Below, in pieces: positions 17,916-20,612 of a stretch of 22,838 nt of DNA (positions are counted from its first letter, which is position 1; every line of letters starts with the position of its first letter). Where the stretch lies: positions 1 through 22,838 of the IMG/VR virus record IMGVR_UViG_3300046499_000319, one strand, 5' to 3'. The DNA comes from a virus. Below the pieces are notes generated by a model that searched no databases, was not told the DNA's origin, and saw only the letters and a program-made list of their open reading frames with translations. The position numbers were made by a program, and so were the translations under genes.

Positions 17916-19532
17916 CTACTTCTCGGTAGCGTTTTGGGCCACGTCCCACGGGTCCGGTTTCCACAAGGGATGAACCACGATCTCTACGTCCTCCGACCGT
18001 GACCCGTGCCGAGTGAGCGCCACGCGCCGAATGAGCTTGCGATACATCATGTTTCGCTCGCCGTCGTCGAGCGTCGGCCACTCCTCGACTGTGCCGACGA
18101 CGAGCGGTATGAACTCGGCGCGGTCGGGCAGCGGGGCGGTTTCCGGGATGCTGTCGAGGGTGGCTTGTGCCTCTGCCCGCTTGCGTCGGATCACGTTTGC
18201 GGCTTCCTCGTACTCCCCTTCCTCCCACTCGTCCGGGTCGGCCGCGTGTTCAGCACGGAGCCGCGCGAGGGCCTGGCGCTGCTTGTCGACTTCGGCCTGT
18301 GCCCGTGCGCGGGCCCGCATATTGGCGGCCTCTTCCTCGGCGAGGTTCCGCTCGGGAGTGTGCTCGGTGGGCGGGGCGTTGTCGATGCCTGCGGCGGCTT
18401 CGCGTTTGAGCCAGCGGAATACCTCGCGCTCGACGATATGGCGCGGTACGAGAACGCCCACGCACGCGGTCGCTCCGCTCTTGGCGCGGAGGCTGCACCG
18501 GTAGGCCCATCCAGGCACGTTGGCGCCGTCACGGCGTGCGGCGTTAAGGCTGGTCCCGAGTCGGCACGCTGAGCATTTGGCAAGTCCGGTGAGTTCGTAG
18601 ATGCCGACCCGGGAGCGCGGCGCGGTCGCGCGTACCTCTTTGCGCCGCTGCTGGTAGGCATCCCACAGGCCGTAGTCGATGAGTTCCTTTTGAGCACCCT
18701 GGATGTGGACGCGGTTGCGGCACTTGCCGTCAGTCTTGCGGCATCGGCACTCAGGGTTGTGGACGATGAGCAGACCCGCGGGAAAGCCTGAGTCCATGTA
18801 CCGGCTGAGGGTTTCCGTACTCCACAGTGATCCTTGGGTGGTGCGGTGTCCGGCGCGGTTCAGCATGCCGCACAGCGTGTTGAATCCCGTTCCTGCGATG
18901 TACGCGCGGTAGAGGTCGGCGACGGCTGGCCCGATGTCTTCCTGGGGCTCGTACCGCTCTTTCTGTAGCTTCCCCGTCGTCTCGTCGTAGCGGCGGTGCC
19001 ACTCGTACCCGAAACGCTTCCGGCCCTGCGCGGGCAAGTGGAGTTTGTACTTGCGGTGGTCGTGCGTCTCTCGCCACTGCTCGCCGGCGCGGTCGCTCTC
19101 GAACGCCCCGAATTCGAGGATCATGCCGCGCTGGAACCGGCCGATGGCGGTCGAGGCGTCGACGGGTTCTGTCGCGGATTCCAGCTCTCCGCCTGCCTCT
19201 TGGAGGCGGGCGAGGTTCATCGCGTTGCCGGTGCGGTCGCGGCCGAACCGGGAGTAGCGCCATACGGCGACGCCGCGGACTTCGCCGCCCTCGACGCGCT
19301 CGATGCACTGCATGATCTTGCGTTTGAAGTGTCGGCCGGACACGTCGAGGTCTTCGACCCATCCGACGATGCGGCGCCCTGTGCGGCGGGCCCACTGGGT
19401 GATCGCGTCCCGCTGTAGCTCGGGACTGATCTTTTCTTCCTTCCACGTACTGACGCGGATGTAACCGAGCCACGGCTCGCCCTCAGTGTCGGGCGAGCCG
19501 CGGAAGGTGTCGGGCAGTTGTGGTGTGGTCAC
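17916..19532 (-). CDS. int: Large serine integrase
   Basis: A 538-aa site-specific recombinase that should integrate and excise the phage at attP/attB. GTG 19532 is chosen: it overlaps the stop of the upstream gene (GTGA) and has GGAAAG upstream. Resolvase domain: YIRVST with the nucleophile S28, then WRYSRFGRDR (91-100) and the EFGAFESDRAGEQWRE helix (~140-155). The recombinase domain follows (~165-300). A zinc-ribbon segment has C320, C323, C346 and C357. A coiled coil (EEEAANMRARARAQAEVD and on) spans ~398-460. Length is normal. It ends about 270 bp from attP and is co-directional with the carried acyl-CoA synthetase 5' end, so after integration int would lie directly upstream of the rebuilt host gene. 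Confidence 0.95.
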   Translation of the reverse strand: MTTPQLPDTFRGSPDTEGEPWLGYIRVSTWKEEKISPELQRDAITQWARRTGRRIVGWVEDLDVSGRHFKRKIMQCIERVEGGEVRGVAVWRYSRFGRDRTGNAMNLARLQEAGGELESATEPVDASTAIGRFQRGMILEFGAFESDRAGEQWRETHDHRKYKLHLPAQGRKRFGYEWHRRYDETTGKLQKERYEPQEDIGPAVADLYRAYIAGTGFNTLCGMLNRAGHRTTQGSLWSTETLSRYMDSGFPAGLLIVHNPECRCRKTDGKCRNRVHIQGAQKELIDYGLWDAYQQRRKEVRATAPRSRVGIYELTGLAKCSACRLGTSLNAARRDGANVPGWAYRCSLRAKSGATACVGVLVPRHIVEREVFRWLKREAAAGIDNAPPTEHTPERNLAEEEAANMRARARAQAEVDKQRQALARLRAEHAADPDEWEEGEYEEAANVIRRKRAEAQATLDSIPETAPLPDRAEFIPLVVGTVEEWPTLDDGERNMMYRKLIRRVALTRHGSRSEDVEIVVHPLWKPDPWDVAQNATEK

Positions 19533-19891
19533 AACGCTTTCCGTTCCGGTAACTGGCTGATCGGGAACAAGGCAATGACGTTGTCCGCCTCCTCTGCGGC
19601 GGCGCGATGTCCGGGCCCTGTCGGCGCGGTGCTTGCCTGGTCGAGCAGGCCGCGGGCCACGTGGTCGAGGGCGAGGCGGTAGCCGGCGGTGTGTGCGTCG
19701 GCGAGCTGGTCGTCTTGGGCGCGGTGCTCGCCGCGGAGTGCGTTGATGACGACCAGTGGGACGGCAACGACCGTGAGGAAGAACCCGCAACTCATGACGT
19801 CATCGTTTACGCCAAGCAAGCCGATGATGCCGAAGGCCAACCCGGTTCCGAGCAGGCCGTAAGCGAGGTGCGGGGTGTGGTGCTGATTCAC
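19529..19891 (-). CDS. Small two-helix membrane protein upstream of int
   Basis: A 120-aa protein starting at GTG 19891 with GGAGGG 9 nt upstream. Two transmembrane helices are predicted at ~8-28 (LAYGLLGTGLAFGIIGLLG) and ~31-52 (VMSCGFFLTVVAVPLVVINAL), followed by a cytoplasmic helical tail (QLADAHTAGYRLALDHVARGLLDQ). No named family. The stop overlaps the integrase start, so the two are co-translated. A TTA codon lies at 19550-19552, near the 3' end, just before the int start, so slow decoding there could affect int expression. Candidate roles are superinfection exclusion or host membrane signalling; both are speculation. Confidence 0.7.
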   Translation of the reverse strand: MNQHHTPHLAYGLLGTGLAFGIIGLLGVNDDVMSCGFFLTVVAVPLVVINALRGEHRAQDDQLADAHTAGYRLALDHVARGLLDQASTAPTGPGHRAAAEEADNVIALFPISQLPERKAL

Positions 19892-19920: not shown

Positions 19921-20364
19921 TTAGTGCTCGGCGATCTGCTCGCCGTCTTCGGGGGGTGGCTGACGTTGCAGTGTCTCGGCCATAGACACAAAGAGTCGTT
20001 TGGCCTGCTCGTCGACGATGCCGAGAGCTGCGGCGGCTTCTTGTGGCGTTATGCGGCGCGCTCCGGGCTGTGGGTCCTGGACAGCGCGCAGTTCGGATCG
20101 ATCAATGACGCCGGCGCGTACAAGGATGTCGCCGAGTGGATGTCGTAGGAATTGGGCTAGTTGGGTGAGGATGTTGATGTCTGTGATGGTTCGGCCGTCT
20201 GGGTCGAGCATGCGACTGATGGTCGGCCGGCTGATGTTCGAATCTCTCGAAAAGTTGCCCTTGCCTCCGCTGCGCTGCCCGGAGAGGTCGTAGCCGCGGC
20301 GTACTAGTTCGGCGTGCAGCCACTCGGCAAACGCTGCGTTCTCTCTAGGACGTTCATTTTTCAC
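19921..20364 (-). CDS. Probable immunity repressor (HTH)
   Basis: A 147-aa protein starting at GTG 20364. Residues ~12-85 form a Cro/CI-like helix-turn-helix domain (FAEWLHAELVRRGYDLSG, NISRPTISRMLDPDGRTI, LTQLAQFLRHPLGDILVRAGV). The C-terminal part has a helix (AAAALGIVDEQAKRLFVSMAETLQ) that may mediate dimers; no RecA-cleavage (LexA-type) peptidase domain is visible. It is divergent from a Cro-like gene across a 253-bp region with matching dyads, the usual layout of a lysogeny switch. The ribosome site is poor (AGGG abuts the GTG). One CGTTC-N6-GGACG half-matched operator covers codons 5-10, which suggests autoregulation. Confidence 0.75.
   Translation of the reverse strand: MKNERPRENAAFAEWLHAELVRRGYDLSGQRSGGKGNFSRDSNISRPTISRMLDPDGRTITDINILTQLAQFLRHPLGDILVRAGVIDRSELRAVQDPQPGARRITPQEAAAALGIVDEQAKRLFVSMAETLQRQPPPEDGEQIAEH
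20337..20352. promoter_or_regulatory. Operator copy O3 (in the repressor gene)
   Basis: CGTTC-TCTCTA-GGACG, which matches the CGTTC-N6-GAACG dyad at nine of ten arm positions. It lies inside the repressor coding sequence, 12-28 bp after the start, a place where bound repressor could block its own transcription. Confidence 0.5.
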
Positions 20365-20483
20365 CCCTGAAATGTAGCGCGGAGGGGTGCGCTCCGGGAG
20401 TGAGGGTTTCGGGCACTTCTTCGCTTGCCTGCATGTGGCACCTACGAGCGCTTATCTGCGGGTTTGCTTCGAACAGATGTCCG

Positions 20484-20512
20484 ATTGTGGTCGCGCAATC
20501 GCTCTGTGTCAA
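20484..20512 (-). promoter_or_regulatory. Leftward repressor promoter
   Basis: On the minus strand, a perfect -35 TTGACA (20507-20512), a 17-bp spacer and a -10 CACAAT (20484-20489, four of six). It points at the repressor gene and would give a leader of about 110 nt. A 9-bp inverted repeat (TGTGGTCGC 20486-20494, GCGACCACA 20524-20532) brackets the promoter, with one arm over the -10 box and the other just upstream of -35, so a regulator may bind here. Confidence 0.6.
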
Positions 20513-20544
20513 CGGCATATGCGGCGACCACACGAACACACAAC

Positions 20545-20573
20545 TTTCACATCAGAAACTTAGGTGATAGCGT
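20545..20573 (+). promoter_or_regulatory. Candidate rightward early promoter
   Basis: TTTCAC (20545-20550), a 17-bp spacer and TAGCGT (20568-20573) precede the Cro-like gene. The -35 match is poor and the -10 is only fair, but the -10 overlaps operator O1, which is where a repressed early promoter would be expected. Confidence 0.3.
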
Positions 20574-20586
20574 TCTTTCCAGAACG
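20571..20586. promoter_or_regulatory. Operator copy O1
   Basis: A perfect dyad CGTTC-TTTCCA-GAACG. It overlaps the candidate -10 and start region of the rightward promoter. Same arms and same 6-bp spacer as O2, with centres 26 bp apart. Confidence 0.7.
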
Positions 20587-20596
20587 AACACGGTTC

Positions 20597-20612
20597 CGTT
20601 CAGAAAGGAACG
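20597..20612. promoter_or_regulatory. Operator copy O2
   Basis: A perfect dyad CGTTC-AGAAAG-GAACG. It overlaps the ribosome site (AAAGGA) of the Cro-like gene, whose ATG is 6 bp further on, so a protein bound here would sit across the start of the early transcript. Confidence 0.7.

Follow-up and report, generated by a model that had tools for sequence, protein, structure and literature searches.

Genes and promoters of the repressor-cro region

The window analysed here, a stretch of 22,838 nucleotides, comes from a Streptomyces phage related to Raleighvirus and found in soil. Its relatives are Streptomyces phages belonging to Raleighvirus, Picardvirus and Austintatiousvirus, together with an unclassified group that had S. 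sanglieri as its isolation host. A repressor gene and a gene for a Cro-like HTH protein are transcribed divergently (Table 1). The serine integrase gene is read leftward, downstream of the repressor gene, and an ERF annealing protein is encoded by a later gene in the window. For comparison we used 57 non-identical loci with the repressor/Cro layout, several dozen of them contributed by searches of IMG/VR, which also served for the prophage survey, and eight complete or nearly complete relatives. The repressor used as a single-sequence query against genome contigs gave no match.

Table 1. Genes, predicted promoters and candidate regulatory sites of the window, in order of position
Feature	Coordinates	Strand	Description
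Serine integrase gene	17916..19550 (5′ end approximate)	-	Pfam Resolvase 2.5e-21; PHROG 95 3.4e-77
Lysogeny repressor gene, 147 aa	19921..20364	-	PHROG 3949 (transcriptional repressor), E 8e-28; homologues annotated immunity repressor
Probable operator	20337..20352		CGTTCTCTCTAGGACG; repressor codons 5-10; one mismatch (15/16) to CGTTCTYTCYAGAACG
Putative operator at repressor start codon	20358..20373		TTTTC-ACCCCT-GAAAT; commoner form of the family; absent from the earlier note
Probable leaderless repressor promoter and start	20362..20376	-	TACATT-N6-GTG; conserved as TANNTT-N6-(A/G)TG
LexA (SOS) box	20469..20484		TCGAAC-AGAT-GTCCGA, TCGAACAGATGTCCGA; abuts Prep -10; fits S. venezuelae consensus
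Leftward promoter Prep (predicted)	20484..20512	-	TTGACA 20512-20507, 17 bp, CACAAT 20489-20484; 10/12 consensus match
Putative operator O1	20544..20559		CTTTC-ACATCA-GAAAC, imperfect; over early -35; absent from the earlier note
Early promoter (predicted)	20545..20573	+	-35 TTTCAC 20545-20550, 17-bp spacer, extended -10 TGATAGCGT 20565-20573
Putative operator O2	20571..20586		CGTTCTTTCCAGAACG; 6-4-6 palindrome CGTTCT-N4-AGAACG; over early -10/+1; kept in L018 and L019; distal copy
Alternative register of the second reported site	20592..20607		GGTTC-CGTTCA-GAAAG; 5 bp upstream of 20597, 21 bp from O2; weak
Second reported site	20597..20612		CGTTCAGAAAGGAACG, CGTTC-AGAAAG-GAACG; over Shine-Dalgarno; doubtful operator in this register
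Cro-like HTH protein gene, 73 aa	20618..20839	+	PHROG 1702, E 4.6e-12; homologues annotated CRO

The earlier note had read this region as a lysogeny switch. That reading is supported by the assignment of the two proteins to PHROG 3949 and PHROG 1702, by their divergent genes and by the retention of this layout in all 57 loci. An XRE-type HTH domain, as expected of a phage repressor, is indicated by the PHROG 3949 match, by a profile match (E 5e-5) to the solved repressor 5d4z of a Salmonella temperate phage, which was the best structure match, and by an all-helical fold model (pLDDT 83) built from an alignment of the exact window and locus translations. Foldseek searches with the model returned HTH regulators as best matches with weak E-values, and the fold comparison informed little; Pfam HTH_26 was matched below the cutoff only. 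No recognisable self-cleavage domain was found in the repressor.

Promoter elements recur at the related loci. The extended -10 element TGNTANNNT was found upstream of cro in 50 of the 57 loci, against 2.7 in shuffled sequences, and an equivalent of Prep (TTGAC) in 46, against 1.2. The in-frame element TANNTT-N6-(A/G)TG was present at the repressor start in 51 loci, against 0.04 in shuffles; the repressor is probably translated from a leaderless mRNA. A LexA box that matched strictly and was followed by a -35 element occurred in 28 of the 57 loci and in none of the shuffles. The published S. venezuelae consensus is tCGAAC-N4-GNNCGa (PMC9380542).

The place of the LexA box is nearly constant in most relatives, and Bioscum, PapayaSalad, Alderaan and Austintatious carry a perfect TCGAAC-N4-GTTCGA.

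Palindromes at the two divergent promoters

Three matching operators of the form CGTTC-N6-GAACG had been proposed in this region. Their coordinates are exact, with perfect copies at 20571-20586 and 20597-20612 and a copy with one mismatch at 20337-20352, and so is their placement, over the -10/+1 of the rightward promoter, over the Shine-Dalgarno sequence of the Cro-like gene (20604-20610) and in repressor codons 5-10 respectively. Under a Markov model of the window, 0.06 perfect copies are expected where two were found, and 1.65 copies with at most one mismatch where five were found. As the remaining one-mismatch copies lie at 19090 and 22158, the site at 20337 is not distinct from these by the plain motif. 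Counting mismatches to the plain motif was rejected as a measure, since at up to two mismatches there are 20 copies against 21 in shuffled sequence and nothing is discriminated. Pair statistics on their own were also set aside, being not significant over the window: in 31% of simulated windows two 5-6-5 palindromes of the same word fall within 300 bp of each other. The significance of the pair therefore rests on its place and on the relatives.

Judged in this way, the three sites fare differently. The case for 20571-20586 as a putative operator is strong, and it is the best supported of the reported sites. In both L018 and L019 the changes at this site are confined to the spacer, and chance is excluded because the site is conserved and is copied at a distal promoter (see below). 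The site at 20337 became distinct when the motif was lengthened. Against the extended word CGTTCTYTCYAGAACG, built from O2 and the distal copies, a match of its quality has an expectation of 0.0012 in the window, where the next best match has three mismatches. It also lies exactly 21 bp from the 20358 site and is nearly kept in L019, and it is probably an operator.

The site at 20597 is a doubtful operator in the register first given. Its right arm, GAACG, belongs to AAGGAACG, a Shine-Dalgarno context present in 17 of the 57 loci, mostly ones with other operator types; L019 breaks the palindrome, with GACCG as its right arm, and the distal copies do not include the site. The alternative register at 20592 makes a poor palindrome, but both L019 and the distal copies retain its GTTC.

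Two further candidate sites, 20358-20373 and 20544-20559, had been missed; both match the commonest operator form among the relatives. Palindromes of the type TTC-N6-GAA total 27 on the early promoter side and 22 on the repressor start side, against about 0.3 in shuffles. Measured from the extended -10 element, 16 of 38 non-redundant loci have one at -24, covering the -35, and seven have one at +2/+3, covering the -10/+1. A palindrome at -7 from the repressor start, the position of the 20358 site, was found in 14 of 44 non-redundant loci. When whole records were scanned for exact CTTTC-N6-GAAAG, all eight records having it contained one copy each, which in Darolandstone, Raleigh and Bioscum lies over the early -35. 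The arms vary by clade (CTTTCA/TGAAAG, GTTCCA/TGGAAC and GTTTCA/TGAAAC, with CGTTCT/AGAACG in the window) and the geometry is constant. Putative palindromic operators are found at both divergent promoters, as in switches of the cI/Cro type.

Long inverted repeats with arms of about 16 bp, which start at the early -10 and reach as far as the Shine-Dalgarno sequence, were seen upstream of cro in L039, L040, L044, L047 and L096. They show paired changes between phages and could be a single extended dyad or a pair of inverted operators.

A putative distal operator upstream of the HNH-nuclease gene

Along most of its alignment to the window the L019 record shows about 94-96% identity, falling to 80% in one stretch, and it was therefore used as a substitute for regions beyond the window. 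In this record the perfect motif occurs again about 6 kb downstream, as ATAGCGTTCTCTCTAGAACGAACACAGTTC, which differs by one base from the early-promoter stretch of the same record (28/29 bp). About 75 bp separate the element from an HNH-nuclease gene downstream of it, and an SSB gene comes next. The same element was found in L109, a separate contig encoding a 92% identical HNH protein. The earlier statement that there are no copies elsewhere thus holds for the 22,838 bp, which contain no third perfect copy, but not for the close relative, where a copy lies past the point at which the window ends. The phage from which the window derives probably has this distal operator as well, beyond the window end.

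Intervals upstream of the HNH gene were compared in seven complete phages, and most hold a version of the phage's own operator word, often past a GC-rich hairpin. Such copies, before HNH and SSB, were located at L098:6730-6760, L099:33014, L101:29925, L104:29576 and L105:33384. Over 31 records, the early and HNH operators matched at 18.4 of 24 positions within a phage, compared with 15.5 between phages and 14.1 after shuffling (permutation p = 1e-4). Seven whole genomes were also scanned, each for the 18-bp O2 word of the phage itself, with a tolerance of up to four mismatches. Matches were obtained only at the early promoter, at the HNH promoter (five of seven phages) and at the repressor start (two of seven); the HNH-promoter copies of Eklok and SoJo were not recovered by this strict scan. 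In a 34-kb close relative the extended word, with up to two mismatches, was present only at the repressor gene, the early promoter and the HNH promoter. The immunity determinant would thus extend beyond the switch region, as most relatives examined repeat the operator before the distant HNH gene.

These distributions bear on several other explanations of the sites. Stoperator or phiC31-type systems, with many repressor sites over the genome, are known in other actinobacterial phages, as PMC4557955 describes. Such a system is very improbable here, because the number of places with sites is three in the 34-kb relative and two or three in the complete ones; dispersed sites like the stoperators of cluster A mycobacteriophages or those of the phiC31 type were not found. 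We give equally little credence to the idea that the CGTTC motif is a host LexA box or a product of chance. Its GAAC/GTTC letters do resemble the SOS box, and the pair is not a rare one, but the half-sites of the S. venezuelae consensus are in the opposite order to those of the CGTTC sites, a genuine LexA box stands apart at 20469-20484, and conservation together with the distal copy rules out chance for 20571. Somewhat less remote, though still improbable, is that the two perfect copies are the arms of a hairpin in the cro 5′ leader, which would hide the Shine-Dalgarno sequence and control translation. The copies at 20571 and 20597 lie in inverse orientation, giving 17-bp arms that are 82% complementary, and at the equivalent place L039 and L040 carry long inverted repeats in which the changes are paired. 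Against this, the predicted transcript begins within the first arm, folding was no better than in shuffles (z -0.68 and -0.24), an Rfam search gave no match, and the distal and repressor-start copies retain the DNA palindrome alone.

A weightier question is which of the two proteins reads the sites. Similarity of the early-promoter operators followed Cro (partial correlation 0.43) rather than the repressor (0.15), but a nearby control stretch was equally biased. This Mantel test being confounded by linkage, we used the distal operator, whose distance of 6-8 kb from the two regulator genes makes linkage weak. In 28 records, similarity of the HNH operator correlated with repressor identity (r 0.67) and still did so given Cro and the HNH protein (partial 0.52), with partial values of 0.12 for Cro and -0.15 for the adjacent HNH protein, in tests that remove shared ancestry incompletely. 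In L021 and L029 the Cro recognition helix is identical to that of the window, whereas the O2 word and the repressor helix differ; among these two and the window, CGTTC sites occur only with the window's repressor type. The tracking of the HNH operator and the helices of L021 and L029 point to the repressor as the likely reader of O2. The opposite assignment, in which O2 and the distal copy are Cro sites or are shared by Cro and the repressor is limited to the CTTTC/TTTTC sites at 20358 and 20544, has perhaps a minor chance of being right. It would account for the better correlation of Cro with the early-promoter operators and for the two site forms, CGTTC-type and CTTTC-type, found in class I phages as well as in the window; the presence of both forms in one window might reflect two binding proteins. 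It does not agree with an unlinked HNH operator that follows repressor identity and not Cro, with O2 words that differ among phages having an identical Cro recognition helix, or with the ToastyFinz-type phages, in which the O2 word equals the word at the repressor start.

A model for the switch and its relation to known systems

With the repressor as the likelier reader of O2, we are fairly confident that the region controls a lysogeny switch of the cI/Cro type, whose repressor would act at its own start, at the early promoter and at the HNH promoter. The scheme that we infer for repressor binding, oligomeric state, direction of regulation and the sharing of sites by Cro starts from what the sequences show: the sites with their positions and conservation, the distal copy, and operators that track the repressor. 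The 147-aa repressor, probably a dimer or higher oligomer, would bind the 16-bp palindrome of 6-4-6 geometry. Bound at O2, over the -10/+1, it would switch off cro and the early genes, and it may also occupy O1 over the -35 to stop the early promoter. Binding at 20337-20352 and 20358-20373, around the repressor start, would most likely be autoregulatory and limit repressor synthesis. The HNH-SSB promoter, a second early promoter 6-8 kb downstream in the relatives, would be locked by the same repressor through its operator, and Cro probably competes for some of the operator sites.

Homologous repressor and Cro-like genes in the same divergent layout form the cassette of the cluster BC phages (Raleigh, Darolandstone, Tubberson, SoJo and SV1; Raleighvirus, Picardvirus and Austintatiousvirus), which likewise have the serine integrase and a small gene downstream and HNH-SSB genes later. 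These relatives mostly carry CTTTC or GTTCC half-sites, whereas the window carries CGTTC. SV1, one of the related phages, serves for generalized transduction in S. venezuelae. On the basis of synteny with mycobacteriophage BPs, the Tubberson paper treats this cassette as an immunity system, and the excerpt that does so gives no operator sequence for it (PMC12243558). Our literature search found no published operator for cluster BC Streptomyces phages.

As far as sequence can tell, the system is cI/Cro-like in its working, and BPs is its closest resemblance. PMC4557955 describes the BPs repressor as acting at several distant promoters besides OR and ORep, through palindromes with short spacing; BPs has a 12-bp palindrome, CGACATATGTCG, an integration-dependent repressor and a tyrosine integrase. 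The likeness lies in an OR on the early promoter, an ORep that lies downstream of Prep and close to the repressor start, and a few further promoters; candidate counterparts of OR and ORep are present in the window, and in the relatives there are candidates at a distant promoter as well. The differences are a serine integrase encoded by a separate gene and 16-bp palindromes of 6-4-6 geometry. In integration-dependent immunity of the BPs type a tyrosine integrase gene adjoins a repressor gene containing attP; judged by its integrase, a serine recombinase, the window does not have such a system. The full BPs operator is two palindromes about 5 bp apart; here the spacing is 21 bp in the pairs 20337/20358 and 20571/20592, the second members of which are weak. 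Repressors of the 434 and P22 type are also short HTH proteins with palindromic operators, of about 14-18 bp. They are like the repressor of the window in both respects, and no confident sequence match to them was obtained.

Since the operator words vary by clade in step with the repressor, the sites define testable immunity groups. The operators were previously unmapped in these phages, and a specialist might not expect to see a LexA box or a distal HNH operator among their elements. Recurrence of the operator before HNH and SSB suggests that in lysogeny this nuclease/SSB unit is locked in the same way as the early operon. Taken together, the LexA box and the leaderless start suggest a route by which damage signals could reach a repressor without a recognisable self-cleavage domain. 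We offer only tentatively, as rather less likely than the basic switch, a three-point SOS-linked arrangement in which the leaderless repressor controls its own start and the early and HNH/SSB promoters while host LexA acts on the distal leftward promoter. If true, DNA damage would switch on the leftward repressor/integrase operon directly via LexA and not by repressor cleavage.

The repressor gene is irregularly annotated in two relatives. In ToastyFinz (KY676784.1, 25024-25764) the annotated gene runs over the control region and overlaps, at 25739, a cro-like ORF that has no annotation; the conserved repressor start is near 25470. Ignacio (MT451980.1) has no annotated repressor between the small gene and cro, and part of the ORF is recognisable there by tblastn.
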